From Vicinamibacteria bacterium (lineage in GTDB: Bacteria; Acidobacteriota; Vicinamibacteria; Fen-336; JAGNNV01): a DNA stretch of 64,000 bases. Of this stretch, positions 31,930-54,710 are shown piece after piece. How positions within the stretch are numbered: position 1 is the stretch's first letter; each line of letters starts with the position of its first letter. Below the pieces are notes generated by a model. It saw nothing but the letters and a program-made list of their open reading frames with translations. It was not told where the DNA came from and made no database searches. The stretch is taken from contig JAIBCN010000021.1 in NCBI GenBank assembly GCA_019694155.1, forward strand, positions 1-64,000. Direction: 5' to 3'. The position numbers were made by a program, and so were the translations under genes.

Positions 31930-32885
31930 AGGGGCTGGCTGCGGATCCACTCCCAGGTGGACCGAAGGCCGTCTTCGAGCGGCACGTGGGAGCGGAAACC
32001 GAGCAGGCTCTCGGCGTGGCCGGTATTCGCGACCCGGCAGCTTCCCGCCGTGCCATCGGCCTCGTCGAAGACGGGCTCGAAGCGGACTCCCGCCGCCGTC
32101 ATCATGGCCTCCGTCAGCTCATTCACGGAAAGGGCGCGGCCGGAACCCACGTTCAGGACCTTGCCGTTCACTTCGCGGGACATGGCGAGCAGAGTCGCGT
32201 GCGCGATGTCATCGACGTGGGAGTAGTCGAGCGCCTGCTCTCCATCGCCGTGGACGAGCGGGGGCTCGTTCCGGCGCATCCGTTCGAAGTTCGCCACGAC
32301 CACGCTTTTGTACCCGGTTCCCACGTACTGTCGCGGCCCGTACACGAAGAAGTAGCGAAGGGAGACCGCGGCGAACGTCCCCGCGCGGTAGGCCGCTTCG
32401 ACCAGGTTCTCGCCCGCGAGCTTCGTGGTGCCGTAGAGGGTGTGCGGGTGACAGGGCTCGGTCTCCACCATCGGGGGGCCGGACATCCGTCCATAGGCGT
32501 AAAGAGACGACGAAAAAACGAGCTTCCGGATTCCCGCCTTCTTTCCGGCTTCGATGACGTCGCGGGTGCCGAGGACGTTGGTGAGCACCAGTTCCCGAGG
32601 CGAGTCGAGCGACGGCCGGTGCTTCTCGGCGGCCAGATGAAAGACGCCGTCGACTCCATGCAGCAACTCCGTGAGCTTCTCCACCGGCGCCTCGCCCAGA
32701 GTCGTCTCCACGAAAACGATCCGGGCGTCCTGGGGAAGGCGCTCGCGGCGTCCCGCCTTCAGCGAATCGAGGACGAGGACCCGGCTCGCGCCCTGATCGA
32801 GCAGCTGCTGGACGACGTTGGCCCCGATGAAACCACACCCTCCGGTGACGGCAAACGAGGCGTTGGGAATGTGGACGGCAGGCAT
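31926..32885 (-). CDS. NAD-dependent sugar-nucleotide epimerase/dehydratase
   Basis: A 319-residue extended short-chain dehydrogenase. The NAD site is VTGGCGFIGANVVQQLLDQG; the catalytic YGTTK sits in HTLYGTTKLAGENLVEAAYR; SSSLYAYG provides the Ser. Together with YFFVYGPRQYVGTGYKSVV this is typical of UDP-glucose/GlcNAc 4-epimerases and their relatives. It probably supplies the sugar nucleotide used by the glycosyltransferases of this operon. The exact reaction cannot be fixed. It lies 15 bases after the upstream membrane gene and overlaps the next gene by four bases. Confidence 0.87.
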   Translation of the reverse strand: MPAVHIPNASFAVTGGCGFIGANVVQQLLDQGASRVLVLDSLKAGRRERLPQDARIVFVETTLGEAPVEKLTELLHGVDGVFHLAAEKHRPSLDSPRELVLTNVLGTRDVIEAGKKAGIRKLVFSSSLYAYGRMSGPPMVETEPCHPHTLYGTTKLAGENLVEAAYRAGTFAAVSLRYFFVYGPRQYVGTGYKSVVVANFERMRRNEPPLVHGDGEQALDYSHVDDIAHATLLAMSREVNGKVLNVGSGRALSVNELTEAMMTAAGVRFEPVFDEADGTAGSCRVANTGHAESLLGFRSHVPLEDGLRSTWEWIRSQPL

Positions 32886-34838: not shown

Positions 34839-36752
34839 ATGTCCAGCGTTTCGGAGGTCCGCCTGCCTCCAGGAAGACTCGCCCGCCTCACGCTCCTGGC
34901 GATCCTGGTGGCGGCGCTGATCGCGACCGCCATCATCAACCGGAGGGTCGATCGAGCGCTGGACGCGCCGGTCTCGGCCGAGCAGGCCGTGGAGTTCGTG
35001 CCCCTCATTGCCGGCTCGCCGCTTCCGTTCTGGGGCGGCGAGGACGTGGAATCCGTGGTGTCCGTACAAGGAGGCCTGTATGCCGCGGGCGCTTTCGGTG
35101 TCGCCCGTCTCGAGACCCCCAAAGACGCGCCCGGAAAAGGGCTCGACCGTGTGGATATTTCCGAAGCCCTGCCCACGCGTCGCGCGAGCGCCCTGACAGC
35201 ATGGCGTACCGGTCTCGCGGTCGGCCTCGAGCTCGAGGGACTGTTCGTCTACCGCGATGGAGACTGGTCGGAGGTGCGGTCCGGTTTCGGACCTCTTCAC
35301 GTTCGAGCCCTCGCGGAAACGCCTTCCGGTGAACTGTGGATCGGCGCGCGCGAGGGTTTGTTTCGAATGGGCTTCGCGGAGCGGGTGATGTCGCGCCTTC
35401 ACAAGTCTCCGGTTCGCGCGGTTCTGGTTGCGGAGGGAGGGCGGGTGGTGAGCGGCGGAGAAACGGGTCTTCTCGTGACCCGGGGCGGGGCCACGACCTC
35501 CATGCGGGTTGAAGGCGCAGACACGCCGTGGGTCGAGGATCTGGTCCTGTTCGACTCGCGGGTTTTCGCGGTGACCCCGACGGGGCTCTTTGGCGAAGGC
35601 CCGGATGGCGTCCTGAGGGCCATCGCCGGAGGGGGGAATCTCGGCTCCATCGCGGTTCAGGGCGATCACCTCTTCGCCACTGCGGATCCTCCGGATTCAT
35701 CGGTTCGCCTCTTCGATCGCGCGCTGCGCCCACAGAGCGAGCAAGTTCCGTCCCCGGCGCGCCGGGTGTTCGTCATGGGCGAAAGCCTCGTCGCCGATAC
35801 GGCGAAGGGACTTGTCGAGCGTGTGAAGGACGCCTGGCGTCCGCTGTCACGGCGTCGCGATCAGGAAGGTTTTGGCAACACGCACGTCGGAGCACTCGCT
35901 GCGTATCGGGATCGACTCTTCGTGGGATTCTTCGATGGCGGCCTCGCCGAACTCGCACCGATTCCACCCTCGGGTCCCGCTCTGCAAAGCGGCGCGAAAC
36001 AGGACCCGCCGATGATGCTTCGCGCCCTCACCAATGTCGGCTCGTCGCCGATCTGGGCGGTGAACGCGCTGCTGGACGCGGGCGGAGTCCTGCATGTTGC
36101 GAGTCTTCGCGGCGCTTTTCGATTCGACGGCTCGCGCGTCACGCCGGTCGACGGTTCGGGGGCGGCGTTTTCCCTCGCCCGCACCGGGGGTGGCGTCGCC
36201 ATCGGCTATGGCGAGGGCGTCTTGCTGCCCGAGCGGAAACTGCTTTCCGCGTTCCACGGCCTTCCCGGCAATCAGGCTACCGCTCTGGCGCCCAATGAAG
36301 GAGGGCTCCTTGTGGGCACGCCGTCCGGCCTCGGGTACGTCGAGGGCCTCAAGGTCCGCTGGCGCGTGGCTTCGGGCGAAGGAAAGCTGCCTCATCCCTG
36401 GGTCACCGCCATTCTGCCGGTCGAAGGAAGCGTTCTGATCGGAACCTACGGCGGGGGCGTGGTCCGGCGAGCTGGCCGAATGTTGGACAAGGGCGAGTGG
36501 AATCCTTTCCCCGAAACCGAGGGTCTCAAAGTGAACACAGGATGCCTGGTGGAGGCCTTTGGCCGGGTCTACGCGGGCACCGATGGGACCGGCCTCTTTC
36601 GACTATCGAAAGACGGAACGCGCTTCGAACGGCTTAAGCTATCGCTTCCATCTCAGCGGGTCACCGCGCTTTTCGAGATGGGCGGCTTTCTTTACATCGG
36701 GACGGACGAGGGGTTGACACGATGGTCGGTCGAGCGAGACGTTCAGCCGTAG
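34839..36752 (+). CDS. Membrane-anchored beta-propeller protein
   Basis: A 637-residue protein with an N-terminal membrane anchor (about 13-33, LARLTLLAILVAALIATAII) and a periplasmic region made of repeats of the two-component-regulator propeller kind: GELWIGAREGLFRMG, GLLVGTPSGLGYVEG, SVLIGTYGGGVVRR, RVYAGTDGTGLFRLS and FLYIGTDEGLTRWS. At least ten blades can be counted loosely, enough for one or two propellers. It has no output domain, so it probably acts as a binding platform rather than a sensor kinase. It heads a five-gene run; the next gene starts inside its last 31 bases. Confidence 0.75.
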   Translation: MSSVSEVRLPPGRLARLTLLAILVAALIATAIINRRVDRALDAPVSAEQAVEFVPLIAGSPLPFWGGEDVESVVSVQGGLYAAGAFGVARLETPKDAPGKGLDRVDISEALPTRRASALTAWRTGLAVGLELEGLFVYRDGDWSEVRSGFGPLHVRALAETPSGELWIGAREGLFRMGFAERVMSRLHKSPVRAVLVAEGGRVVSGGETGLLVTRGGATTSMRVEGADTPWVEDLVLFDSRVFAVTPTGLFGEGPDGVLRAIAGGGNLGSIAVQGDHLFATADPPDSSVRLFDRALRPQSEQVPSPARRVFVMGESLVADTAKGLVERVKDAWRPLSRRRDQEGFGNTHVGALAAYRDRLFVGFFDGGLAELAPIPPSGPALQSGAKQDPPMMLRALTNVGSSPIWAVNALLDAGGVLHVASLRGAFRFDGSRVTPVDGSGAAFSLARTGGGVAIGYGEGVLLPERKLLSAFHGLPGNQATALAPNEGGLLVGTPSGLGYVEGLKVRWRVASGEGKLPHPWVTAILPVEGSVLIGTYGGGVVRRAGRMLDKGEWNPFPETEGLKVNTGCLVEAFGRVYAGTDGTGLFRLSKDGTRFERLKLSLPSQRVTALFEMGGFLYIGTDEGLTRWSVERDVQP

Positions 36753-39127
36753 CCGGGCGGGCGATTCGCCTGCTGTCCGGGCTGGCGCTCGCGATGAGCG
36801 GGGCCGCCGCGCACGCCCAGTCCGGCATGCTCGTTCCCACGAGCACGGGCCGGCAGGACCCCGCCGTCTTGTCCCTGCGCGAAATGACGATCGATGCGGC
36901 CATTGCTCGCGGCTATGCCCGCGTGAACGTGCGGCAGATCTTCGAGAACCACACCGATCAGATCCAGGAGGGCACCTACCGTTTCGCGCTCGCGCCCAGC
37001 GCGGCCGTGGGGGACTTCGCGGTGTGGGATGGACTCGTCCGCATTCCCGGCGTCATTCTGGAGAAGCGTCGCGCTCGCGCGATCTACGAGGCTCTCACCA
37101 CCCAGCGCATCGATCCTGGCCTCCTCCAGCAGGGCGAGGAAGAGGATCGCGAGCCCGGCTCGGGCCCCTCCACCTCGTCGCCCTCCGGCTCCGCGCCCTT
37201 CTCAGTGAAGGTGGCGCCCATTCCCGCCCGGGCGACCAAGCGGCTCGAGCTTCAGTTCCAGCAGGACGTCAACGTCGTGGGCCTCAAGGGCGAGTTCCGG
37301 ATGCTCCTCGCCCCGGTGGACGGCGAGCCGCTTGTCGCGCGCACCCTGCGTATCCGCGTGGGCCTGAACAGTCTCATCTACGAAGCGATCGCGAATGGTC
37401 TGCCGCTTCAGCCCACGGCCGACGGCGTCTCGTTCGAAGGCACGAACGTGAAGCTCGACCGCGATCTCGTCGTGCGCTTCAAGCTGCGCGACGAGGCGCC
37501 GCTCAGGTTCTCCGCGTTTCGAAACCCCGACGGCCGCATGCCCGACGGACTGGCTCTCGCACCCTGGGAGCGCCCCGCGGATATTCCTCCCGAGAAGGAT
37601 GGCTTCTTCCTGATGGAAGTCCTTCCTCCCGCGGCGGCGGCCCAGGCCGCGGCTGGTGCGGGCGGCGGCAAACCCCTCACGCCGGCGAAACGGGCCCCGC
37701 TTTCGGTCGCCGTCCTCTTCGATACCTCCCTCTCGCATCGCTTCTCCGGTCTCGAGATGTCCTATCAACGGCTCGTTCGCCTCTTCGGCGCTCTGACTCC
37801 GGAGGACAAGTTCGCTCTCGTGCCCTTCGATGCGACCGTGGACGCGCCCCCGGCCCTCGCAAACGCCATCGATCTCGTGAAGACCACGTCGCTCCAGCGC
37901 CTTCGCGCCCGCGCCCTCTCGCCCGGCACCAACATCCTCGACGCCCTGACCGCCGCGCAGAAGCTCGTCGGCGACGGCGACAAGGGTCGCCTCGTCCTCT
38001 TCACGGACGGGGTCGCCATGCCGGGCTCGAAGGACCTGAACGCCGCGCGCCGAAGAACTCCTCTTTACGTGAGTGTCGCTACCCCCGACGCCGGCGCCGC
38101 CCTTCGCGGAACCGCGGAGGGAGTCGTGACGGCACTCTCCTCCGAGCCGGAGACGGATCTTTTCTTCGATCGGATTCTCAGTCCCACGAAGGCCCAGGCG
38201 CCCGGACCGGCCCCCGCCGCCAACGAGGGCTCGCTTCGGGTCACCCTCGGAGATCCCGGTCTGCGCGACGTCTATCCGGTGATGGTGCAGCCGCCGACTC
38301 CTCTCTCCCTTTCCGGTTTCGTTGGCCGATACTCGAAACCCGCGACCGGGGTCCGCATGGCCGTGGCCGCAGGGATCCTCCCGAAGGACGCCAGCACACT
38401 GACCGTCGCCTTTCCTGCGAAGGCCCTCGAGGCCCGCGACCTGCCGAGACGATGGGCGCGCGCACGGGTCGACGATCTGCTTCGACGCATCGAGGAAGAG
38501 GGCGAGAGACGCGAATGGGTCGACGAGATCATCGAGCTTTCGCGCCGCTACAAGTTCGTGACGCCCTACACCGCGTTCCTCGCCGCCCCGCGATCCCTGT
38601 TGCGCCCGCGCCGTATTCAACCCGGCGACCCTGTGCTCCGGGTCGAGTGCGACGAGGGCACGGTGATGGCGACCGCCCTCTTCCCGTTCGGTTTGAAACT
38701 GCCGCTCGTAAAGCGCCCGCAGTCCAATGTCTTCGAGGGACGCTTCCTCGTGCCCGACTCCCTGAAGGACGGCCGTTATTCCGTCCAGATCGTGATGCGC
38801 GATCGCAGCGGCCGCACAGCCACCGAATCGAAGACCTTCGTCATCGACGGCCAGGCCCCGAGGATTTCGCCGAAGGTGCAGAAGCTCGCGCGCGTGGGTG
38901 ACGACATCATCCTCGCCGCCTCGACCGACGACGACGTGATCTTCCTCTCGGCGCGCGTTGGCAATCTCCCGCCCGTGCCGCTGAGATGGGACAAGACCGC
39001 GCAGGCCTCGATTGGCCGGCTCCACCTGCCCGCGTCGTCTGTGGGAATGCAGGAGGTCGTGTTCGAAGCCGTCGATCTTGCGAAGAACGTGGGCTTCTCC
39101 CGCGCCACGCTGGAGGTGCGCCAGTGA
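36722..39127 (+). CDS. Secreted VIT-vWA protein (inter-alpha-trypsin-inhibitor heavy-chain-like)
   Basis: An 801-residue exported protein. It has a signal peptide (about 1-33, ending AAAHAQ), a VIT domain (about 45-190, with ARVNVRQIFENHTDQIQEG and ILEKRRARAIYEAL), a vWA domain (about 325-500) with an intact metal-ion site (D334-T-S-L-S338, T403 in SPGTNI, D429 in FTDG), the usual post-vWA helical block ending YKFVTPYTAFLAAP, and a C-terminal Ig-like domain (about 700-801). VIT-vWA proteins mediate protein-protein contacts outside cells. It overlaps the propeller gene by 31 bases and the next gene by GTGA, so all three are translationally linked. Confidence 0.88.
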   Translation: MVGRARRSAVAGRAIRLLSGLALAMSGAAAHAQSGMLVPTSTGRQDPAVLSLREMTIDAAIARGYARVNVRQIFENHTDQIQEGTYRFALAPSAAVGDFAVWDGLVRIPGVILEKRRARAIYEALTTQRIDPGLLQQGEEEDREPGSGPSTSSPSGSAPFSVKVAPIPARATKRLELQFQQDVNVVGLKGEFRMLLAPVDGEPLVARTLRIRVGLNSLIYEAIANGLPLQPTADGVSFEGTNVKLDRDLVVRFKLRDEAPLRFSAFRNPDGRMPDGLALAPWERPADIPPEKDGFFLMEVLPPAAAAQAAAGAGGGKPLTPAKRAPLSVAVLFDTSLSHRFSGLEMSYQRLVRLFGALTPEDKFALVPFDATVDAPPALANAIDLVKTTSLQRLRARALSPGTNILDALTAAQKLVGDGDKGRLVLFTDGVAMPGSKDLNAARRRTPLYVSVATPDAGAALRGTAEGVVTALSSEPETDLFFDRILSPTKAQAPGPAPAANEGSLRVTLGDPGLRDVYPVMVQPPTPLSLSGFVGRYSKPATGVRMAVAAGILPKDASTLTVAFPAKALEARDLPRRWARARVDDLLRRIEEEGERREWVDEIIELSRRYKFVTPYTAFLAAPRSLLRPRRIQPGDPVLRVECDEGTVMATALFPFGLKLPLVKRPQSNVFEGRFLVPDSLKDGRYSVQIVMRDRSGRTATESKTFVIDGQAPRISPKVQKLARVGDDIILAASTDDDVIFLSARVGNLPPVPLRWDKTAQASIGRLHLPASSVGMQEVVFEAVDLAKNVGFSRATLEVRQ

Positions 39128-42100
39128 CGCCGCGGGTGCGACCGTTCGCTCGCATCGGCGCGCTCAGCCTGGCCGGCGCCGTGTTCCTGGCCGCGTCACC
39201 CCGGCCCGTCATTCCCTGGGAAGACCTGACCGAAGTCGACTGGCTCTATGAACTCGCCACCCGCTTCTCTTTGGTCGACTCCCATCGCGTTCACTACAAG
39301 ACCCCAACCGCCGAGCTGGCGACCCTTCTCGAGGCGCGGCCCGAGCCCGAGGCCCTGCGCCATCTCGCCCAGGCGCAGATGGATCTCGGCCAGCGCGAAA
39401 AAGCGCTCGCCACCATCGAGAAATGGGCGGCCGCGTGGGCCTCGGCGAACGCCGATGCCGCGGGCGCCGGCTGGGATGAAGCAGCGCGCTGGGCGTGGTC
39501 CTATGGCGCGCACGCGCAGGCGTTTGTTTTCGCGGACAAGGCGATTCCCCTGCTCAAGGGCGAAGCGCAGCGCGCGGTCGCGAACCAGCGTGTGGAATGG
39601 GCGGAGTTGCAGCCGGCGCTTCGCGACAAGCGCGAGATGCAGCGCGCGGCCCTCGAACTCAACTCCACCGACTGGGCGACCGCGTACACCTGGGTCGACA
39701 GCGATATCTCCTCGGAGCATCTCCTCGAAGCCGACAAGGGCCTCGCGAACCTTCCGAAGAACACGCCCGAGGAACCCGCTCTCGTCCTGCGCGCCCGTCT
39801 GCGCGTCGCTCAACTGCGCGCCGCGGAGGTTCTGCCCGCTCTCGATGCCGCCCTCGACTCGAACCCTCGCCGCGGCCGGCTCTTCGCTTCCGTGTACGTG
39901 CGCGCCATCGATCAGGGCGCAAAGTCGCGACCGGACGAGTGGCGGCAGTCGCTCGATTCGAGGTTCGAAGCCCCGACCCTCGCTCGCCTCTTCACGTACT
40001 TCAAGGGTCAGGAGCGGGGTGACGCGTGCCTCGCCCTGTTGCAGCAGATCGATCGCCGGTACCAGAAGAGCCTGGATCGGGCCGGCTGGTCGCTTCTCTC
40101 TTCTCTCTACTCCGAGATCGACGCGGTGCCGGAGGCCTTCCGCGCCCGGCTTGCCGCGGCCACGTTCGCGGATGCGAAGGCAGCCGAGGGCGACCTGGTC
40201 GAACTCACCCGGCTTTCCCTTCGCGCCGGTGGGCGTCCACTCGCCTGGGGCAACTACGCGGACGCCGACTATGCGTGGGTGGCACGCATGGATCCAACAC
40301 CGGGGTTCTGGACGGGCGGCCTGTCCCTGCTCCTCACCGGACAGGACTGGAGCGAGGCGCTTCGGCGACTCGAGGCCGAGTCCATTCCTGAGCGCACGTT
40401 CGGCGCGGCCCGCGCCCTTCTCGCCGAGCTCGTCAAGCGCAATCCCGCGCACCCCGACATCCCGGGCCTCAAGGTCGACATCATGCAGCGGCACGTGGAC
40501 CGCGGCGAGGGCAGGGAAGCGCTGGCCCTCCTCAAGGAGATCGAGGCCGCGCCCGACGCGGGCGCCAGGCAGCGCGCGCAGGCTCTCGGAATCCTGGCCC
40601 TTCGGCAGACGAAGGGCGCGCTCGCCGAAGAGACGCGGCTCTACAAAGCCCAGCTCCGGTTCCTCGCCGTGGATGGTTCTTCGCCGGTGGTCGCGGATCA
40701 CGAGAGCGAGCCCACGCGGCGATTCCAGACCGGCGACTTCGGCGAGGCCGGCGCTTCGGTGAACGACACCGTCGAGTCGCGCCAGCAGCGCTACAAGCCT
40801 CTGCTCGACGAGGCCATCAGCCGTCTTGAAGAACGCGACAAGACGCATCGCAGTTCGATCGCCCTGATCCTGGCCGAGATGGATCGTCTGCCCGGCGCGG
40901 AAGGCCTGTGGCTCCAGCTCGCCTCCCGCCTCGACGCCTGGAACCTCGATGACGAACTCGCCCCCCGCTACGAGGCGGCCCTTTCGCGGTTCGACGATCC
41001 TTCATGGTGGAACCGGCTGGCCCGCCTCCTCACCCGGCAGAAGCGCCAGGTCGAGCTTCGGTCTCTGGCCGAGAAGATCGCGGCCACCTTCCGCGGCGCC
41101 GCCCTGTTCGAGCGTTCGTCCGACAACAATGTGCGCCTGGAGATTCCCGAGCAGCCGAAGGTCGGTGTCCGCACGCGCCTCGTACCCTGGGGCGACTGGG
41201 TCGCGCTCAAGGCCCTCGAACGCTTCCCGCATTCCCCGGTGGTGCTGCACGCCGCCGAAGGGCGCCTCGTCACCTCGTCCGCGTGGGCGCGAAGGAGCGT
41301 CCGTGCCACCGACCCGAAGCAGCCCGCGGTGGTCGAAGACACCCTGCTCGCGGAACGGCGGTGGGCCATCTTCGCGGCCGATGCGGGAGTCCGCGAGCAG
41401 TACTTCGCTTCGCTCATGAAGACCAACGCTCTCGAGGCGAAGCTCCAGGCCCTCGATCGCGCGGCCTCGCGCACTCCGGTGGACGACCTCGTTCTGCTCG
41501 AGGGTTACACGCGATTGTCCCTCTTCGAGAAGGCGGCCGACGCGGCCTCGCGCCTGTCTGCCGTGTACCCCGGTGACGAGAGCGTGGCTCGTCAGGCCCT
41601 GCAGATCCATCGTTCGCTTGCCGGCCTCGATCTGTCCCATGAAGCGCCCGCGAAGGCCGTGGTCGATCGCGCGGTTCCCGCGCTGGTCGACCCGAATCCC
41701 TTCATCACCGAACTCGGTGAGCTCTACGAGGAAACCGGGCGTCCCGAGATCGCGCTCAATATCTGGAAGGGGCTTCTTGCCCGCGACCCGCGGCAGGAGG
41801 AGCGCATCAAGGAGGCGGCCACTCTCCTCTGGGACTACGGCCACATCAGGGAAGCCCTCGATGTCATCGAAACCGGCCGGAAGGAACTGAACCGGCCGCG
41901 CATGCTCGCGTTCGAGGCGGGCGTCCTGCGCGAGGGCGTGAAGGACGTCGACGGCGCGATTCGCGAGTATCTCGACGCGGTGCGACCCGATGCCGATACC
42001 GATGCCTGTTACTGCTCCGGCTTCGAGAACGATCAGCGCTCGCTGCGCCGGCTCGCCCAGTGGATGGGCCGCGACCGCGTCCTGAAGCGCGTGCTCGGAA

Positions 42101-45100
42101 CGGTCGAGTCGCTCAAACCCGGGAACGAAGCCGACGAGAAGACGCTGCTCGCGTTGTGGCCGCTGGGTTCGATCTACGCGCCTACCCCCGGCCTCGATTG
42201 GGACGCGGACGACTGGATCGACGCCATGGATCAGCCGAACGATCCGGTGGGCCGCGAAGAGCGCGAAGCGAAGCGGCTCGCCGCCCGCGGCAGCGAGAAC
42301 GCCGGCATCGCGAGGGTGGCGCTCGCCCTCGTCAATCGCGCAGTCCTCATGACGCCCGCGGCCACGAACGGGAAATTCCTGAGCGCGCTCGAGAGCGCCG
42401 CCGCGGCCTATCGCGCGAGTGCGTTCGCCGATGCCCAGGCACGAGACCGCTTCTTCACCGGCATCGTGGCCCGGCAGGCGGAACTCGCGCCCACGGTCGA
42501 GGAGCGTCTGCGTCTGGAGATCGATCTCGCGCAGCGCCTCGCGAGCAGCGGCCGCGTCGCCGAGGCCAACGCGCTGTGGAACACGCTCGGTGCTCGCGTC
42601 GAGGCCCTCCCCGACAGCGCGTCGAAGCTCAAGGCCCTGGTGTCGCGCGCCGCCTTCATCGAGCGGAACTCCGGCTACGAGCCGGCGCGAGCCTCGTGGG
42701 ACGGCCTGATCGCGAAGTATCCGTGGAGCCTCGGCGTGATCGAGGATCGCGCTTTCTTCCTTCGTCGCAACGGACGCGCCGAAGAGGCGCGGCAGGCGAT
42801 CGAAGACGCGAGCAACCGTGCGGCCGAGGGTCACCTCGTCCCCCTGCTCACGCGTCTCGTCTCGGAATCGCTCGGCGAGAAGGACCTCCCGCGCGCCTCG
42901 CGAGCTCTCGATCGCCTGCTCAAGACCGCGACCCTCACCGACGACCAGCGCCTCGGCGCGGTCTCGCTTCAGGCGAGACTCCGGTTCCAGCAGGATCCGG
43001 GCTTCGGCGCGGTGGCGTTCGCGATCGCGGAGGCTCCGAAGTTCAAGCCGGAGCTGCGGGCGCAGGTGTTCGCCGAAGTGGCGCGCGCCGCCTTCGTCGA
43101 GAAGGTGTACGCGACCTCGGTGTCCGCCTGGATCGAGGCGCTCAATCGCAGCACCCAGCGCGACTGGCTCAAGGAGGCCGCGCGAGCGGCCAGAAAGACG
43201 GGGAAGCCCGAGGTTCTGGTCTCGTTCTTCGAGAAGCAGCAGCAGCGTTCGCCGCGCGACGTGCGCTGGGCGGTAGCCGCGAGAGAACTGCGGGTGGCGA
43301 CCGACAATCTTCCGGGCGGCATCGAGATGGCGCGCACGGCCGCGCAGGTCCGGCCCGAGCGCCAGGTGCTGTGGGACGAGGCGGTCGAACTGATGGAACG
43401 CGACTATCGCTTCCTCGAAGCCGCGGACTTCCTCGAGGGGTGGAACGTCCAGCGGCCCGACGATCCTTCGGTTGCGGGCAAGCGGAGCGAGCTGTACATC
43501 CGTGCCGGCGATTTGAAGAAGGCGGTAGCGGTCGAGCGCGCCGCGGTGGACGCGTTCGAGAAGACCGGCCCGTCGGAGGAGGACCTTTCGAACCGCGCCG
43601 CAGACGCCGCCCGGCGGCTCTGGCGCCAGGGCCAGCCGCAACTGGCCTGGCGCTTCCTGGCGCCCCAGGGGACTCCCGAGGAGATCGAAGCCTCCGGGCT
43701 GTCGGTTGAGGAGGAATTCCAGCTCGCCCTCCTCAACAACGCCTATGTGCCTCTGCTCGAGCTCGACGTCGATGACGCGGAACGCCTGATCTCGGCCGCG
43801 GGTGTGCTCGGTCAATACGGACGCATCGAGAACCGCGAACAGGTGCTCTCGTGGCTCCTTGCGAAGATCTTCCCGGCCGCTCGCGCCGACGATGCCTTCC
43901 TCAACAAGTGGTGGTCGTTCATCGAGAACGCCCGCCTCGAGGCTCCGCTCCGCTTCAAGCTCGCGCAGCGTTTCGCCGCTCAGGTCGCCGGCCCCTGGAC
44001 GCGCGATACGCCCGCCGATCTCCTGGACGGGGCCGCGGAGTCCGTGGTGGCGAGCGTCCCCACCGCGAAGGAAGGCGAGACCCAGCGGAAAGTCCGGACG
44101 CCCGATTTCGACGCGCTGTGGACCGCGCACCTCGTTCGCTTCGATCAGGCCGAGGACCTCGCGAAGTTCCTGGCTCCGCGGCTCACCGCTCTCATCGAGG
44201 CGGCGCGCGGCAACGCCGTCATCACCTCCGACAGCAAGCGCGAGCCGTGGACCCTGTGGCTCGACTCCGCGCCCGCGATCCAGACCTTCGCCCGCGGTTT
44301 GCGGACGCAGCCCGAACTCATCGCGAGCCTGTCCGCGGTGTTCGAGAACCGCAGGCTGTGGGATCGCTTCTGGGCGATCGGCGCGCGAGGCTGGGAGGCG
44401 TCGCACCTGTTGTCCGAACTGCGCCCGACCGCGCGGGTGACGTGGCTCTCGTTCTGGGAGCGGCCGGTGTTGAACGCCGCGAATCTCGAAGACCCGGTGC
44501 TGGTGGGCCGCCGCAACACCATCAACGAGACCTCGCTCTCCCTCGGCGAGTTCCTGGCCGATGCCGAGCCCAAGGCCTCGCCCGCCCGCACCGCCTTCGC
44601 CGAGCGTCTGCTCGGCCCCTCTATCCTGGGCGAGATCCTCGGCGACGATCCGAAGTTCACCTGGCCCATGTTCAAACCGAGGACGAACGTGCAGGGCGAC
44701 ATCATCGAGACCGGTGACGACCGGGTTGCGGGTCGCGGCATCGACACCCTCCGCTTCCCGGGCGCCCTGTGGGGCGAGCGACCGGGCGTCGCGTGGTTCG
44801 CGCTTCAGGCTTACTCGAGGTATCGCGCGCAGGATCCCTCCGCGATCGACGTGCCCGCCGAGTGGCCGGAGGCGGGAGGCGAGACTGAACGCGCGCTCCT
44901 CACCGCGCGCCTCGCCCTGGCCCTCAAGGGGCCAGCCGAGGCCCTCGCGCGCGTGGAGCGGATGGGCCTCCGCACGAACGACGCCGATCTCTTCCGGTTC
45001 CGGCTGGGTCTCCTGGTCGAGGCCGGCAGGAGACCGGAGGCGGTCGAAGCGCTCAAGCGGCGGATCAACACCGACCAGAAGAAGCTCTCCGAGGACGGCC

Positions 45101-46884
45101 TGCGCGCGTACGCCGCCATGGCCGAGGATCTCGATCTCGGCGCTCCGCTATCTCTCCTCGACCCCGCCGTTCCCATTCAGCCCGCCCTGCTCGCGTCGAT
45201 ATACGACACTCAAGGAGCGGAGGCGGGGCGACGGTTCAAGACCGAGGACGTGGTCGGCTTCCGCGCCGCTCTCTCCGCGCGATGGAGCGAGAAGGCGGCC
45301 GCATTGAAGGCGCCGGAGCTTCGCGTGTGGCTCTCCGATCTTTGGGCGAACGAATCCATCGGGCTCCCGCTGCGCGGCCTGAGCCGGCTTGGAGACTTCT
45401 GGCCGGTGGCGTCGTCGTGGGCGGAAAGCGTTCCCGTGAACGACCGGCTCAAGGCCATCGCCGCCATTGACGCGCTTCCGAACACCGCGCTGCTCGACGC
45501 TCTCCCCGAGACGGTCGGGGACGCCTGGGCCCGCCGCTTCCTCATGATCCGAGTGCGGCTCGCGCGCAGTGAGGACGATCTCGCGGTCACGCTGTTCCGG
45601 AACGCCCTCGCTTCGCTCCAGACTCCGCAGTCGCTCGTCTTCCAGCCCATCGCGGTGGCCACGGCCGAGGCCGAATCCGGCGAATCGGAGGGCGATGTTG
45701 CGAACGTGCGGACGGGCTACGGGGAAGGCGAGGGCGGTGAAACGGAGGAGGCGAACCCCCGGGTCAAGACCTTCAAGGCCTTGCGCGCGCCGTTCGCCCT
45801 CGCCCGGAAGAGCGCTCTCGTTCAATCGGAATCCGCGGCCTGGCTCGATCAGCAGATCGAAGACTCTCCCGAATCGCTCGACTACTGGGGCGTGAGGCTC
45901 GAGGTCGCCCCGGCCGCAGAACGGGCCGACGTCGTGGAGAAACTCTCCCGCGCCTATCGCCGCGGCGACATCGCGACCTATCGCCATGGCGAGATCGCGG
46001 CCCTGCTCGTCAAGAACGCGAAGGAACTCGCCGCCCCCTGGGTTCAGCACACGGCGCCTTCGTGGGATTCATTCCCCGTGGTCGAGCGTCACGCGGGCTG
46101 GCTCGCCGACACCGGCGCGACCCGCGAGGCCGCTTCCTACCTCGTGGAGGCTCGTGGCAAGGCGCTCTTCGAGAGGGCCGAGGAGATTCGCGCCTTCGAC
46201 AAGTGGCGTCGATGGATCGATGCGGGCGCTTCCGGTCCGGAGACCTGGAAGCAGGCGCTACGGTTCTGGCGCGAGAACCCCGAGGCCATTGCCGAGCCGC
46301 TTCAGGCCCGACTGAAGGATCACACCTTCGACGTCCTTTCCGCGCGCGCCGCCCTGCGGCGGCCCACCGCGGTCTCGCCCCAGCTCGCGTTCCTCGCCAC
46401 CCGCGCGCTGCGCGACGTCGATGACCTCGGCTTCATCGAGGTGTCGAACGACGAGGCCTTCCTCCGCCTGCGCGCGGCCCGGTCGCTTCTCGCGAAGCCC
46501 CGCGCGGCCCGGACCATGGCGGGGTATCTCTCCGCGGACTCGGTGGCCCTGGACCTCACACGTCGTCATTTCAAGGCTGCCGATGTCGATTCGGCCCTCG
46601 CCGATCTCGCGCGGATCGCCGCCGCCCTGGGCGATCGCAACGAGCTTGGTCGATCGCTCGATGTCCTGACCGACCGGAAGTGGGCCGGCGCCAGGGCTCT
46701 GCGCGCCGAGCTTGCGGCGGCACTCGTCGAGCCCCCCATGGTCTCGCACCGCGTGGTCTCGGGCCGCTCTCTTCTCTATCGGCCGCGCGATCTCAACTTC
46801 GGGCTCGTGTCGCAGATCGTCCAGGCCGACCTTTCTCGGCGCGCGCAGAGTCCCGCGCCGTCCGCGACTTCGGGGGCACGATGA
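39124..46884 (+). CDS. Giant 2,586-residue helical-repeat (TPR-like) periplasmic protein
   Basis: One uninterrupted frame of 2,587 codons. A hydrophobic signal or anchor (about 12-28) is followed by hundreds of amphipathic helix pairs of TPR/SEL type, for example AEVLPALDAALDSNPRRGRL, PEIALNIWKGLLARDPRQEE, ARASWDGLIAKYPWSLGVIE and AVAVERAAVDAFEKTGPSEE. An acidic Gly/Glu linker (about 2184-2213) separates a C-terminal part of about 370 residues. Cys is nearly absent (I count three). No catalytic motif and no alpha-2-macroglobulin thioester was seen. Such solenoids are scaffolds. The GTG start overlaps the preceding TGA (GTGA), and the stop overlaps the next ATG (ATGA). It is unusually large and sits centrally in the operon. 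Confidence 0.82.
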   Translation: MTPRVRPFARIGALSLAGAVFLAASPRPVIPWEDLTEVDWLYELATRFSLVDSHRVHYKTPTAELATLLEARPEPEALRHLAQAQMDLGQREKALATIEKWAAAWASANADAAGAGWDEAARWAWSYGAHAQAFVFADKAIPLLKGEAQRAVANQRVEWAELQPALRDKREMQRAALELNSTDWATAYTWVDSDISSEHLLEADKGLANLPKNTPEEPALVLRARLRVAQLRAAEVLPALDAALDSNPRRGRLFASVYVRAIDQGAKSRPDEWRQSLDSRFEAPTLARLFTYFKGQERGDACLALLQQIDRRYQKSLDRAGWSLLSSLYSEIDAVPEAFRARLAAATFADAKAAEGDLVELTRLSLRAGGRPLAWGNYADADYAWVARMDPTPGFWTGGLSLLLTGQDWSEALRRLEAESIPERTFGAARALLAELVKRNPAHPDIPGLKVDIMQRHVDRGEGREALALLKEIEAAPDAGARQRAQALGILALRQTKGALAEETRLYKAQLRFLAVDGSSPVVADHESEPTRRFQTGDFGEAGASVNDTVESRQQRYKPLLDEAISRLEERDKTHRSSIALILAEMDRLPGAEGLWLQLASRLDAWNLDDELAPRYEAALSRFDDPSWWNRLARLLTRQKRQVELRSLAEKIAATFRGAALFERSSDNNVRLEIPEQPKVGVRTRLVPWGDWVALKALERFPHSPVVLHAAEGRLVTSSAWARRSVRATDPKQPAVVEDTLLAERRWAIFAADAGVREQYFASLMKTNALEAKLQALDRAASRTPVDDLVLLEGYTRLSLFEKAADAASRLSAVYPGDESVARQALQIHRSLAGLDLSHEAPAKAVVDRAVPALVDPNPFITELGELYEETGRPEIALNIWKGLLARDPRQEERIKEAATLLWDYGHIREALDVIETGRKELNRPRMLAFEAGVLREGVKDVDGAIREYLDAVRPDADTDACYCSGFENDQRSLRRLAQWMGRDRVLKRVLGTVESLKPGNEADEKTLLALWPLGSIYAPTPGLDWDADDWIDAMDQPNDPVGREEREAKRLAARGSENAGIARVALALVNRAVLMTPAATNGKFLSALESAAAAYRASAFADAQARDRFFTGIVARQAELAPTVEERLRLEIDLAQRLASSGRVAEANALWNTLGARVEALPDSASKLKALVSRAAFIERNSGYEPARASWDGLIAKYPWSLGVIEDRAFFLRRNGRAEEARQAIEDASNRAAEGHLVPLLTRLVSESLGEKDLPRASRALDRLLKTATLTDDQRLGAVSLQARLRFQQDPGFGAVAFAIAEAPKFKPELRAQVFAEVARAAFVEKVYATSVSAWIEALNRSTQRDWLKEAARAARKTGKPEVLVSFFEKQQQRSPRDVRWAVAARELRVATDNLPGGIEMARTAAQVRPERQVLWDEAVELMERDYRFLEAADFLEGWNVQRPDDPSVAGKRSELYIRAGDLKKAVAVERAAVDAFEKTGPSEEDLSNRAADAARRLWRQGQPQLAWRFLAPQGTPEEIEASGLSVEEEFQLALLNNAYVPLLELDVDDAERLISAAGVLGQYGRIENREQVLSWLLAKIFPAARADDAFLNKWWSFIENARLEAPLRFKLAQRFAAQVAGPWTRDTPADLLDGAAESVVASVPTAKEGETQRKVRTPDFDALWTAHLVRFDQAEDLAKFLAPRLTALIEAARGNAVITSDSKREPWTLWLDSAPAIQTFARGLRTQPELIASLSAVFENRRLWDRFWAIGARGWEASHLLSELRPTARVTWLSFWERPVLNAANLEDPVLVGRRNTINETSLSLGEFLADAEPKASPARTAFAERLLGPSILGEILGDDPKFTWPMFKPRTNVQGDIIETGDDRVAGRGIDTLRFPGALWGERPGVAWFALQAYSRYRAQDPSAIDVPAEWPEAGGETERALLTARLALALKGPAEALARVERMGLRTNDADLFRFRLGLLVEAGRRPEAVEALKRRINTDQKKLSEDGLRAYAAMAEDLDLGAPLSLLDPAVPIQPALLASIYDTQGAEAGRRFKTEDVVGFRAALSARWSEKAAALKAPELRVWLSDLWANESIGLPLRGLSRLGDFWPVASSWAESVPVNDRLKAIAAIDALPNTALLDALPETVGDAWARRFLMIRVRLARSEDDLAVTLFRNALASLQTPQSLVFQPIAVATAEAESGESEGDVANVRTGYGEGEGGETEEANPRVKTFKALRAPFALARKSALVQSESAAWLDQQIEDSPESLDYWGVRLEVAPAAERADVVEKLSRAYRRGDIATYRHGEIAALLVKNAKELAAPWVQHTAPSWDSFPVVERHAGWLADTGATREAASYLVEARGKALFERAEEIRAFDKWRRWIDAGASGPETWKQALRFWRENPEAIAEPLQARLKDHTFDVLSARAALRRPTAVSPQLAFLATRALRDVDDLGFIEVSNDEAFLRLRAARSLLAKPRAARTMAGYLSADSVALDLTRRHFKAADVDSALADLARIAAALGDRNELGRSLDVLTDRKWAGARALRAELAAALVEPPMVSHRVVSGRSLLYRPRDLNFGLVSQIVQADLSRRAQSPAPSATSGAR

Positions 46885-48518
46885 TGAAACCGATCCGCCT
46901 CCTTCACCTGCCTCTGAGCCTGTTGGCCGCGTTCTCGCTGACGCCCGCCTGGGCCCAGGAGGCGCCGGCTCCCACAGCCCCCGCCACGGCCGGTCTGCCT
47001 CTTCCCGCCGCGATGATCCGGCTCGCCATTCCGGACGTGCGCGCCTTCGATACGGCCCTCGGGGGCGGATTCAGGAAAGCGCTCTACGGCACGCTTCCTG
47101 AAGACGATGGCGTGGCGCGCGGCTTCGCGCAGAGCCAGGTGGGGGCCAAGCTCCACGATCAGTGGACGCGTTTCCGCGGCGATGCTGCTCTCTCCTTCCA
47201 GACCCTCGTTGAACTGCAGGCTTCTTCCGCGGCCCTGGCCGTTCTCAATATAGGCCACATGGAGATGGTCCTTGTTCTCGAGACGCCGCTCGCCGCCCTT
47301 CCCGACATTTTCGAAGCGGGGACGTCGCGGATCGAATCGGGAAGGACCTATCACCTCGTCCGCACCGGGGCCGCCGATGAAGGAGCTTCCGGGGAAACGC
47401 GGATGGGCCTCGCCTGGTCGATGGATCGAGGTCTGCTCGTGATCACCACGTCGGAGCGCGCGATGAAGCTCGCCCTTGCGGCGGTGGCGAGGGGGGAGCG
47501 CTTCACGCCGAAGCTTGCGGGCCTCGCGGGTCTTGAACTCGATCTCGACGCTCTTCGCGACGATCTCTACTTCAAACGCGACTTCCTGTTCGGGTCCCTG
47601 CCCGGCGCCTCCGACTCGCGCGGGAAGATGAGCGCGGCTTTGCGTCTCGAATCGGGCCGTCTCGTCGAAGTGCGCGAAGGCGCCACCTCCGCGACCGGGC
47701 AGCGGGGCGCTCTCTTCGAAGCGAAGGACGCGGTCGCGAGCGGCTGGATCGGCGACGCCTCGAACCTTCTCACCGAGCTGCGCCGCGGGGTTCTCGAGCC
47801 TGTTCCGAACCCCGTCGCGCGCCCTCAACTTTCGATCGCGCCGCTTCCCGCCGCCAGGGCCGCGAGCGCTGAGGATCGGTACGCGATCAGCGTCGAGGTT
47901 CCTGCCACCTCCCAGGGCGGTTCGTCCAGCGAGGCGGCGGAGGTCGAGGCCTGGAGCGCGCTGCTCTCCGCGCAGCCCGTGGCCGGCTTCGGCTATCTCG
48001 TGACGCCGTCGAGGGCCAGGCTTCTCGCCGTTCCCTGGCCGAAGGAAAAGGACGCGGATCTTTCCGCTCTGCTGGAGGCCACCCTCACCCGAAGGGGCGC
48101 GCGCCTCGTGCCGGCTTCGGCGACCGGCGACTCGCGGCAGTACGTGCTCGGCCCCGGACTGCCGGTCCTGGCGTACCGGCGCATGGGTGACTTCGTCTGG
48201 CTGGCGCCTTCGGCGGCCGACCTTCGCTCCGCGCCCGCGATCGCCTGGAGCAACGAAGTAACCCGCTTCTCGAAGCTGAACCTCCAGGCCGCGCGAGACG
48301 AGGGCCGACGCTGGGCCCGCATCGAAGGGCCCCGTTCGTCGGAGAACGTGCGCCCGCTCGCGGACCGTGTCCTCGGCCTGCTGGGCTGGATGCCCGCGGT
48401 TCGCACGCTCGAAGTCGAGCGGCGCGTCACGGGCACGAGCTTCAGGGAGCGTGTGGTGTTCGGTGTGGCTCCTCCCGCCGCGCCGCCGGCCGCGTCTCCG
48501 ACTCCCGCGACGAAGTAG
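46881..48518 (+). CDS. Secreted protein of unknown function, fourth gene of envelope operon
   Basis: A 545-residue exported protein with a signal peptide (about 2-23, ending AWAQ) and a Pro/Ala linker. The body contains repeated alpha/beta units such as AALPDIFEAGTSRIESGRTY and GLLVITTSERAMKLALAAVA, loosely like DUF3352-type or DUF2138-type secreted proteins, but I cannot confirm either. No catalytic residues stand out. A Pro/Ala tail closes it. The ATG overlaps the stop of the giant protein by ATGA and the next gene follows after 9 bases, so it must be made together with them. Confidence 0.65.
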   Translation: MMKPIRLLHLPLSLLAAFSLTPAWAQEAPAPTAPATAGLPLPAAMIRLAIPDVRAFDTALGGGFRKALYGTLPEDDGVARGFAQSQVGAKLHDQWTRFRGDAALSFQTLVELQASSAALAVLNIGHMEMVLVLETPLAALPDIFEAGTSRIESGRTYHLVRTGAADEGASGETRMGLAWSMDRGLLVITTSERAMKLALAAVARGERFTPKLAGLAGLELDLDALRDDLYFKRDFLFGSLPGASDSRGKMSAALRLESGRLVEVREGATSATGQRGALFEAKDAVASGWIGDASNLLTELRRGVLEPVPNPVARPQLSIAPLPAARAASAEDRYAISVEVPATSQGGSSSEAAEVEAWSALLSAQPVAGFGYLVTPSRARLLAVPWPKEKDADLSALLEATLTRRGARLVPASATGDSRQYVLGPGLPVLAYRRMGDFVWLAPSAADLRSAPAIAWSNEVTRFSKLNLQAARDEGRRWARIEGPRSSENVRPLADRVLGLLGWMPAVRTLEVERRVTGTSFRERVVFGVAPPAAPPAASPTPATK

Positions 48519-48527
48519 GCCTCGTCC

Positions 48528-50324
48528 ATGCGGACGCCTCCGGCCGCCGCGTTCGCTTTCCTTCTGAGCGCCGTTGCGCCCGTGTCCGCGGATGATTTCG
48601 ACGCCTGGATCCTGAGTCGCGGCCAGGTCCAGACCCTCGGACATCCCGGGGAGGAGCCGCTCCCCGTCGGCTCCCTGCAGAAGCCCTTCATCGCGCGGGC
48701 CTGGGCGCGCTCGCACCCGGCCGGCGCCATGCCGCGATTCACGTGCACCAGGAATTCGGGCTGCTGGCGTCCGTCGGGTCACGGGACGCTCGACCTGCGG
48801 GGAGCCATTCGCGAATCGTGCAACACCTACTTCCGCCTGCTCGCACGCGACACGCCGCCGGAGGCGATCCGCGCCTCGTTCGAAGGGGCGGGCTTCGCGT
48901 GGGCGGGGGAGATGAGCAACGCCGAGGCCATCGGCATCAAGGGCCCGGCCGGAGTGCGGGTGGCCCCCGAGCGCCTCATCGAAAGCTACGTGGACCTCGT
49001 GCGCACTCCGTGGACGGCGCGCGAGGATGTGCGGCGCGAGATGCTCGCGGGCCTCAAGGACGCGGCCGAGGATGGCACCGCCGCGGGGCTGCGACTGTGG
49101 GGCTTCATGGCGAAGACCGGCACCGTCCCCGCGCTCGATGGCGCGGCGCTCAAGACGTCGGGCTTCGCGATGATTCTCGACGACCAGGGCTTCGCGTTCC
49201 TCGGTCTTCTGCGTCGAGGCACGGGACGCGAAGCGGCCATTCGTGCGGGAGCGGAGATCGCCAGACTTCGACCGGGGTCCATCGTGCGCGCGCCCGCGAC
49301 CTCTCCAGCACAATCAAAGCCAAGGCCGCTCGCGAGGAAACGCGCCCTCGAGGATCCGGTCCGGGTGGAGATGCTCGACGAGCTTCGGCTCACTGGCTTC
49401 CGACTGAAGAATCTCGGTTCGAGCCCGGTGGATTCATCGCACGGCTACGTAGGGCCGGGCGCCGCGGTCGAAGCCGGGCCCGGCGACCTCTTCTCCGAAG
49501 GCGATTGGGAGATCCGGGCGGTGAAGCCGGCGTTCGAGAGGCGCGTCCACGCCTCTCTCGAAGTCGAAAGGCGCGAGGGCCCCCGCCGCCTCATCGCGAC
49601 CATGACCGCCCGCGACTACGCGAACGGAATCCTGAAGGCAGAGCTTGGAACCGCGCCCGGCCCACTCCGCGTGCAACTGGCTGCCGCGGTTCTCCGCTTC
49701 GCGGCGCGAGGACCGCGACACCCCAATGCGGACGCATGCGATTCGACTCACTGCGCCTGGTTCGTAGGCGAGGGTCCCGTGCCGCGCTGGCTGAGACCGG
49801 ACGCCGCTCGCAACGAGACCGACGTGGCGCCGGACCTCACCGACGAGGAGTGGGTGCGGGCGGTGGGCGAGGCGCGCGCCGAACCGAGAGGTCCGGACTC
49901 GTGGACGGCCGATTGCGGCGGAGAACCGCTGTCGCCGCACTTCATCTGGGGCGGGGGCGATCGCCGCGTCGTCGCGTGCCCGCGCCATCCGAAAGGCAGC
50001 GGTCGAGTGTGGCGTCGTGAATGGCCGGAGGCCGAGCTCATCGCCGTCTTCGGCTCGAAGCCACAGGCGATCGACGTCACGACCATCGACGGACAGTGGA
50101 TGCTGAGGATGAAACTCGCGCCGCGCTCGGCCGGCGGCCTTTCGACAACGATCGCCCTCCCCTACGACGAAGCCCATCGCCGCCTTGCTCAGAGGTTGGG
50201 ATGGGACGCCATGCCCGCGCCGGCCGCGCGCGTGTCGCGGAACGCCGGGGGATTCGTCGCCGAGGGCGTCGGCTTCGGCCATCGCGCCGGCCTGTGCCTC
50301 GGATCACCGGCAACCGCGCGATAG
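48528..50324 (+). CDS. Fusion of penicillin-binding-like transpeptidase domain and SpoIID-like domain
   Basis: A 598-residue exported protein. After a signal peptide (about 1-22) the N-terminal domain has the three serine-transpeptidase motifs in order: S49-L-Q-K52, S97-C-N99 and K196-T-G-T. From about residue 340 it resembles SpoIID/LytB: DYANGILKAELG with catalytic-type E372, DACDSTHCAWFVG (C404, H408, C409), ADCGGEPLSP and the closing GVGFGHRAGLCL. SpoIID cleaves denuded peptidoglycan glycan strands. The pairing suggests one protein acting on both peptides and glycans of the cell wall. The Cys-rich N-terminal half also recalls, from memory only, DUF2300 proteins of bacterial alpha-2-macroglobulin operons. 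It is last of the five-gene run. Confidence 0.75.
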   Translation: MRTPPAAAFAFLLSAVAPVSADDFDAWILSRGQVQTLGHPGEEPLPVGSLQKPFIARAWARSHPAGAMPRFTCTRNSGCWRPSGHGTLDLRGAIRESCNTYFRLLARDTPPEAIRASFEGAGFAWAGEMSNAEAIGIKGPAGVRVAPERLIESYVDLVRTPWTAREDVRREMLAGLKDAAEDGTAAGLRLWGFMAKTGTVPALDGAALKTSGFAMILDDQGFAFLGLLRRGTGREAAIRAGAEIARLRPGSIVRAPATSPAQSKPRPLARKRALEDPVRVEMLDELRLTGFRLKNLGSSPVDSSHGYVGPGAAVEAGPGDLFSEGDWEIRAVKPAFERRVHASLEVERREGPRRLIATMTARDYANGILKAELGTAPGPLRVQLAAAVLRFAARGPRHPNADACDSTHCAWFVGEGPVPRWLRPDAARNETDVAPDLTDEEWVRAVGEARAEPRGPDSWTADCGGEPLSPHFIWGGGDRRVVACPRHPKGSGRVWRREWPEAELIAVFGSKPQAIDVTTIDGQWMLRMKLAPRSAGGLSTTIALPYDEAHRRLAQRLGWDAMPAPAARVSRNAGGFVAEGVGFGHRAGLCLGSPATAR

Positions 50325-54639: not shown

Positions 54640-54665
54640 GATTGGATAACCCCACACCTGAGGGG

Positions 54666-54690
54666 TCGATCGTCAGTCTCGGACGATCGA
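54666..54690 (+). promoter_or_regulatory. Nine-pair hairpin in the 5' leader
   Basis: TCGATCGTC and GACGATCGA pair perfectly around a 7-base loop, 20 bases before the ATG and just upstream of the ribosome site GGGGAAGA. It could be a protein- or RNA-binding leader element controlling this secreted-protein operon. Confidence 0.45.
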
Positions 54691-54710
54691 GAAGCGAAGG
54701 GGAAGACGTC

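Follow-up and report, generated by a model that had tools for sequence, protein, structure and literature searches.

A tightly packed operon of five genes (g1 to g5) was identified in the window, which is the whole stretch of 64,000 nucleotides that was analysed, from a host genome of 5.27 Mb. The first four genes (g1-g2-g3-g4) form a conserved unit that recurs in the same order across the phylum Acidobacteriota. Genes for predicted peptidoglycan enzymes, namely an SxxK transpeptidase and a SpoIID lytic transglycosylase that are fused as g5 in the window, are joined to this core in many families. The domain types of g1, g2, g3, and g5 can be recognised and the catalytic motifs are intact. We infer from these features, with about even confidence, that the operon encodes a trans-envelope complex with a TPR scaffold and that some lineages couple this complex to a bifunctional enzyme for wall remodelling. 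It is also possible, with a chance slightly short of even, that the operon represents an undescribed trans-envelope machine of much of Acidobacteriota where the scaffold, the propeller, and the VIT-vWA protein position an enzyme that cuts glycan and joins peptides, and that YfaQ of the macroglobulin operons is a catalytically degenerate cousin of this enzyme.

The five genes are listed in Table 1. The junctions consist of overlaps of 31, 4, and 4 bases followed by a 9-base gap before g5, where g3 overlaps both g2 and g4 by 4 bases. The coordinates of the open reading frames agree with the five genes, sizes, overlaps, and gap given in an earlier sequence-only reading of this DNA. That reading also assigned export signals to all five genes, and N-terminal hydrophobic export sequences were seen by eye in all five translations. 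In g1 this sequence has the look of a membrane anchor that is not cleaved. Among named genomes, the nearest relatives of g5 come from MAGs with the label Vicinamibacteria (phylum Acidobacteriota).

Table 1. Genes of the operon, with their positions in the window and the basis of each assignment.
Gene	Product	Position	Strand	Basis
g1	Beta-propeller protein with N-terminal hydrophobic anchor, 637 aa	34839-36752	+	Reg_prop, 33 bits; anchor read from sequence
g2	Exported VIT-vWA protein with possible Ig-like C-terminus, 801 aa	36722-39127	+	VIT, 63 bits; ITIH4 profile match; MIDAS motifs
g3	Giant TPR solenoid (predicted) with GTG start, 2,586 aa	39124-46884	+	Strong TPR matches in orthologues; sub-threshold here
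g4	Exported protein of a family without name, 545 aa	46881-48518	+	No family match; 3' of g3 in relatives
g5	Exported fusion of SxxK transpeptidase-type and SpoIID-type domains, 598 aa	48528-50324	+	Motifs; split homologues; PBP3 fold; YfaQ homology

The taxonomic distribution of the operon was searched in 396 genomes drawn across Acidobacteriota using a profile of the middle of g3. The solenoid is present in 39 of these genomes from about 18 families. Thirty solenoid loci were fetched and they consist of 26 operon-type loci and four paralogous solenoids, the latter all from family f47. The paralogues (L185, L188, L191, and L192) are also giant solenoids and have no VIT-vWA or g4 neighbours. 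All 26 operon-type loci have a g4-like gene 3' of g3. The g2 gene is upstream of g3 in 24 of the 26 and a g1 orthologue is upstream of g2 in 21, where some of the absent g1 and g2 cases are ends of fetched stretches. The SxxK and/or SpoIID genes are found at 11 of the 26 loci. The same order (propeller, VIT-vWA, TPR solenoid of about 2,300-2,700 aa, g4, and then peptidoglycan enzymes) is exhibited by Vicinamibacteria, Holophagaceae, and many other acidobacterial families. All five genes in this order are found in closer relatives, which are G001 from the same genus, Holophagaceae MAGs, and family f48. The flanking genes 5' of g1 and 3' of g5 are unrelated or different among these closer loci, and the unit is thus taken to span g1 to g5. 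The junctions with 1-4 base overlaps also recur among the operon loci. Chance is excluded, as many genomes of the phylum that have diverged from one another keep the same order of genes. The sequence-only reading had staked its proposal on the genes occurring together elsewhere, and they do so in the same order.

The pairwise protein distances of g1 to g4 correlate with one another (r 0.95-0.98), which fits co-inheritance of the four genes and, taken alone, plain vertical descent as well. The solenoid is present in only four of 192 genomes of the window's class, all four from the window's own taxonomic order, and the operon is patchy within this class. The operon has so far been seen only in Acidobacteriota, where the profile searches were centred on genomes of that phylum and named genomes were scanned once, by exact peptide patterns only. 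The plasmid collection gave no match to g3, and the search with g2 gave one remote VIT-type match, in Nonomuraea. An apparent natural fusion of g2 and g3 in G001 was rejected as the join is a scaffold gap of N. The SpoIID-like matches in G056 and G047 were rejected as distant operons as tblastn gave no companion genes.

The g5 protein consists of an SxxK transpeptidase-type domain (approximately residues 23-250) and a SpoIID-type domain (approximately residues 320-595). The SxxK half has S49-L-Q-K52, S97-C-N99, and K196-T-G198, which are conserved in orthologues and match the SxxK, SxN, and KTG motifs expected of an SxxK transpeptidase, in order. The SpoIID half has E372, C404, and C409 conserved in orthologues, where both cysteines belong to a CDSTHC motif. 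The conserved GHRxGLC corresponds to the C-terminal GHxxG motif. E372 and GHRxGLC align with the motifs of the SpoIID structure 4rwr, and g5 thus carries both the catalytic glutamate and the C-terminal GHxxG that characterise SpoIID/LytB proteins. For g5, the AlphaFold model (pLDDT 73) has a fold match to the PBP3 transpeptidase domain.

The HMM match of g5 to Transpeptidase is sub-threshold and the SpoIID half is visible in Pfam in only five of 14 g5 orthologues. Separate SxxK and SpoIID genes are found after g4 in families f26, f34, and f44, and one of the two enzyme genes is found in families f39, f49, and f70. These split homologues pass the cut-offs of PF00905, PF08486, and TIGR02669. The split SpoIID homologues, which hold the same operon position, score 144 and 115 bits against the TIGR02669 cut-off of 83 and are found by the g5 profile at 1e-12 to 1e-25. 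The separate proteins pass these cut-offs, which we take to settle the nature of both g5 halves. The transpeptidase-SpoIID fusion named in the sequence-only reading is hence borne out by neighbouring genes that encode its halves elsewhere. In the SpoIID family search proposed with it, the split homologues are over and the g5 of the window is under the curated SpoIID cut-offs of Pfam and NCBIfam. Since the motifs are conserved, the model matches the PBP3 fold, and the split homologues are over the cut-offs, g5 is likely an active bifunctional wall enzyme.

The g5 protein and its split homologues have domain types and catalytic motifs like those of SpoIID/LytB lytic transglycosylases and SxxK transpeptidases of the PBP type. 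However, g5 has both in one exported chain, and it is found in a VIT-TPR operon of Gram-negatives outside a sporulation or division cluster. All loci with fused g5 form one group in the g3 tree (SH-aLRT 100), which includes two members where g5 is absent or off the contig. The tree was built with a quick method and has some long branches outside this group. As the fused loci form one supported group, the tree points to a single fusion event. Two Holophagaceae loci have a sixth gene after g5 (L128:17027-17857 and L080:6134-6241) that resembles the SxxK half of g5. In the L128 protein (276 aa), SCN is replaced by DCN and a KTG motif was not found, and this gene may be an inactive copy.

The TPR matches of g3 in the window are all sub-threshold. 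However, its orthologues L142, L180, and L198 are over the TPR cut-offs, with L142 reaching 108.6 bits for TPR_19, and the g3 core profile matches designed TPR superhelices with an E-value of 1.2e-33. Because of both results, g3 is identified by profile as a diverged TPR solenoid, and the TPR search suggested in the sequence-only reading gives matches over the cut-offs in these orthologues and not in the g3 of the window. A repeat search within the g3 profile of the window's own family gave one off-diagonal match below 1e-3, and the repeats in this family are too diverged for self-comparison. The length of g3 implies a very long superhelix, which would span the periplasm. A TPR scaffold that organises wall hydrolases has a precedent in LbcA of P. 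aeruginosa (PMC6050968, PMC8764530). Compared with LbcA (PA4667), the g3 core profile gives a match at 8.8e-10 that runs through the TPR repeats, and a role in holding wall enzymes is proposed for g3, which like LbcA is an exported TPR protein. In contrast to LbcA, g3 is about five times longer, its gene set is different, and its operon has no CtpA-type protease. The g3 protein resembles LbcA in repeat type and, by analogy, in function, but the two do not belong to one family.

The g1 protein has Reg_prop repeats that score over the cut-off of 20.4 bits. The VIT domain of g2 is also over its cut-off, as the sequence-only reading had anticipated, and its vWA domain is just under (24.5 against 27). 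The g2 profile matches inter-alpha-trypsin inhibitor heavy chain H4 with an E-value of 3.5e-25. The MIDAS residues are present in the g2 of the window in the motifs DTSLS, GTN, and TDG, and g2 is hence predicted to have a VIT domain followed by a vWA domain with MIDAS. This domain architecture is like that of other VIT-vWA proteins, namely inter-alpha-trypsin inhibitor heavy chains and the marine sortase target proteins (TIGR03788). However, g2 is far under the TIGR03788 cut-off (77 against 552 bits) and the unit has no sortase gene. The bacterial VIT-vWA proteins are, to our knowledge, a class mostly without known function. Two MIDAS positions are altered in the g2 of Holophagaceae (L128, L129, L135, and L210), which have GAN for GTN and TSG for TDG, and metal-dependent binding may therefore be lost there.

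The g4 protein has no sequence match in Pfam, NCBIfam, or PDB. Its AF2 model (pLDDT 68.5, pTM 0.65) has its best fold match to the treponemal lipoprotein TP0453, with an E-value of 1.1e-3 and a TM of about 0.4 to the target, and far lower fold matches to the structures of TM1622, LppA, and DcrB. This match is a hint only, from a model of modest confidence, and gives no function. A UB2H-like assignment was rejected as only two of 17 members match, with a best E-value of 0.012.

In the proposed complex, g1 would be anchored in the inner membrane and its propeller would lie on the periplasmic side, and g3 would serve as the scaffold in the form of a long TPR superhelix. The g2 and g4 proteins would bind along g3 as ligand-binding and adaptor subunits. 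The g5 protein would be held by the g3 scaffold, where its SpoIID half would cut glycan strands and its SxxK half would rearrange or trim peptide stems, which would confine wall remodelling to the sites of the complex. Where a family has no enzyme genes at the locus, its core would work with other wall enzymes or with none at all. The sequence-only reading is supported in describing several exported gene products, among them a huge scaffold, here of the TPR type, and an enzyme of the cell wall.

At 15 of the 26 operon-type loci the core is not accompanied by an SxxK or SpoIID gene, and it may therefore serve something other than wall chemistry. Surface assembly is one such purpose, in which the enzymes would only assist. 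In this alternative, the core would be a machine for surface assembly, adhesion, or secretion. The VIT-vWA protein and the propeller would be modules of the surface or of the cargo, with the TPR protein as a conveyor or chaperone, and the wall enzymes would merely make room for the machine in the sacculus. The loci without wall enzymes are consistent with such a machine, vWA-type and VIT proteins often bind other proteins, and one g1 orthologue weakly matches the propeller of PorZ, a component of type IX secretion. However, the unit has no gene for a translocase, outer-membrane channel, secretin, sortase, or ATPase, and the SxxK and SpoIID genes became part of this very unit before their fusion. 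We consider a surface or secretion machine unlikely, with a minor but real probability. The five genes could also encode co-regulated exported proteins that each act on their own, outside any complex, as most of the domains are generic binding modules. This is improbable, as co-regulation alone would hardly account for the tight junctions, the order fixed across the phylum, and the fusion of the enzyme genes.

The sequence-only reading had also suggested a distant kinship with the yfa/mag operons, which are type II bacterial alpha-2-macroglobulin operons represented by yfaA-T-S-Q-P in E. coli and magA-F in P. aeruginosa (PMC5764988). Both systems are exported multi-gene sets around one giant protein. 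The g5 protein is by profile comparison a remote homologue of YfaQ (DUF2300). The hhalign comparison between profiles of 14 (g5) and two (YfaQ) sequences gave an E-value of 3.8e-9 over 305 columns and a score of 76.6, where 30 column shuffles gave no more than 24.4. An earlier comparison of a four-sequence g5 profile with the single YfaQ sequence was not significant. The DUF2300 HMM (PF10062), for which the sequence-only reading had proposed a search, has no match to g5 and stays under the cut-off throughout the window's genome. In the alignment, YfaQ keeps SLWK and has SCG and KTW where g5 has SCN and KTG. YfaQ looks derived rather than ancestral because the SxN and KTG motifs that it has lost are intact in g5.

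The other parts of the yfa/mag operons are missing. DUF2138 (PF09909), which the sequence-only reading had also proposed, has no match in the window's genome, and the assignment of g4 as YfaA was rejected as the hhalign score is at the level of noise (17 against a shuffled mean of 16). No DUF1175, DUF2135, or A2M domain was found in g1 to g5, which have a propeller, a VIT-vWA protein, and a TPR solenoid in place of the macroglobulin, DUF2138, DUF1175, and DUF2135. The A2M bait-region family (PF07703) is absent from the window's genome and from seven of nine operon-bearing genomes tested. The L147 genome has an A2M-type gene (G004:C55:11650-12039) on the opposite strand, some 9 kb upstream of g1. 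In the other operon-bearing genomes such a gene is absent or lies on a different contig. Judged from these comparisons, the kinship is limited to a single gene of remote common descent, and this does not make the operon a mag operon in which one part was swapped. We do not file it as a mag operon because only g5 is common, with YfaA, DUF1175, DUF2135, and A2M all missing. A yfa/mag derivative that acts as a periplasmic protease-defence complex, with the TPR solenoid replacing the macroglobulin, is very doubtful, since the YfaQ homology and the giant exported protein adjoining g5 or YfaQ in both systems are outweighed by a single common part out of five, the absence of A2M, and the intact motifs of g5.

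A literature search, with most subscription papers outside its reach, found no description of this gene set. We rate the domains as known and the system as new, with a putative function, as it is not a variant of any system that can be named. The trans-envelope complex that we favour would provide a conserved envelope system for a phylum of abundant and poorly understood bacteria. It offers handles for experiments in catalytic motifs that are intact, in subunits that can be separated, and in an enzyme that occurs in nature both fused and split. YfaQ has been an unexplained member of the macroglobulin operons, and a relative with intact penicillin-binding motifs suggests its descent from a wall enzyme. 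A bacterial VIT-vWA protein is also now placed in a defined operon.

Two other genes were observed in the window. The reverse strand at 29731-31950 has an open reading frame of 739 aa with a family 2 glycosyltransferase domain followed by a CapK/PaaK-like adenylate-forming domain, which by eye is an unusual fusion. Downstream of the operon, the forward strand at 54642-57191 encodes a PSD-type cytochrome c protein (DUF1587, DUF1592, DUF1588, DUF1585, and DUF1595).
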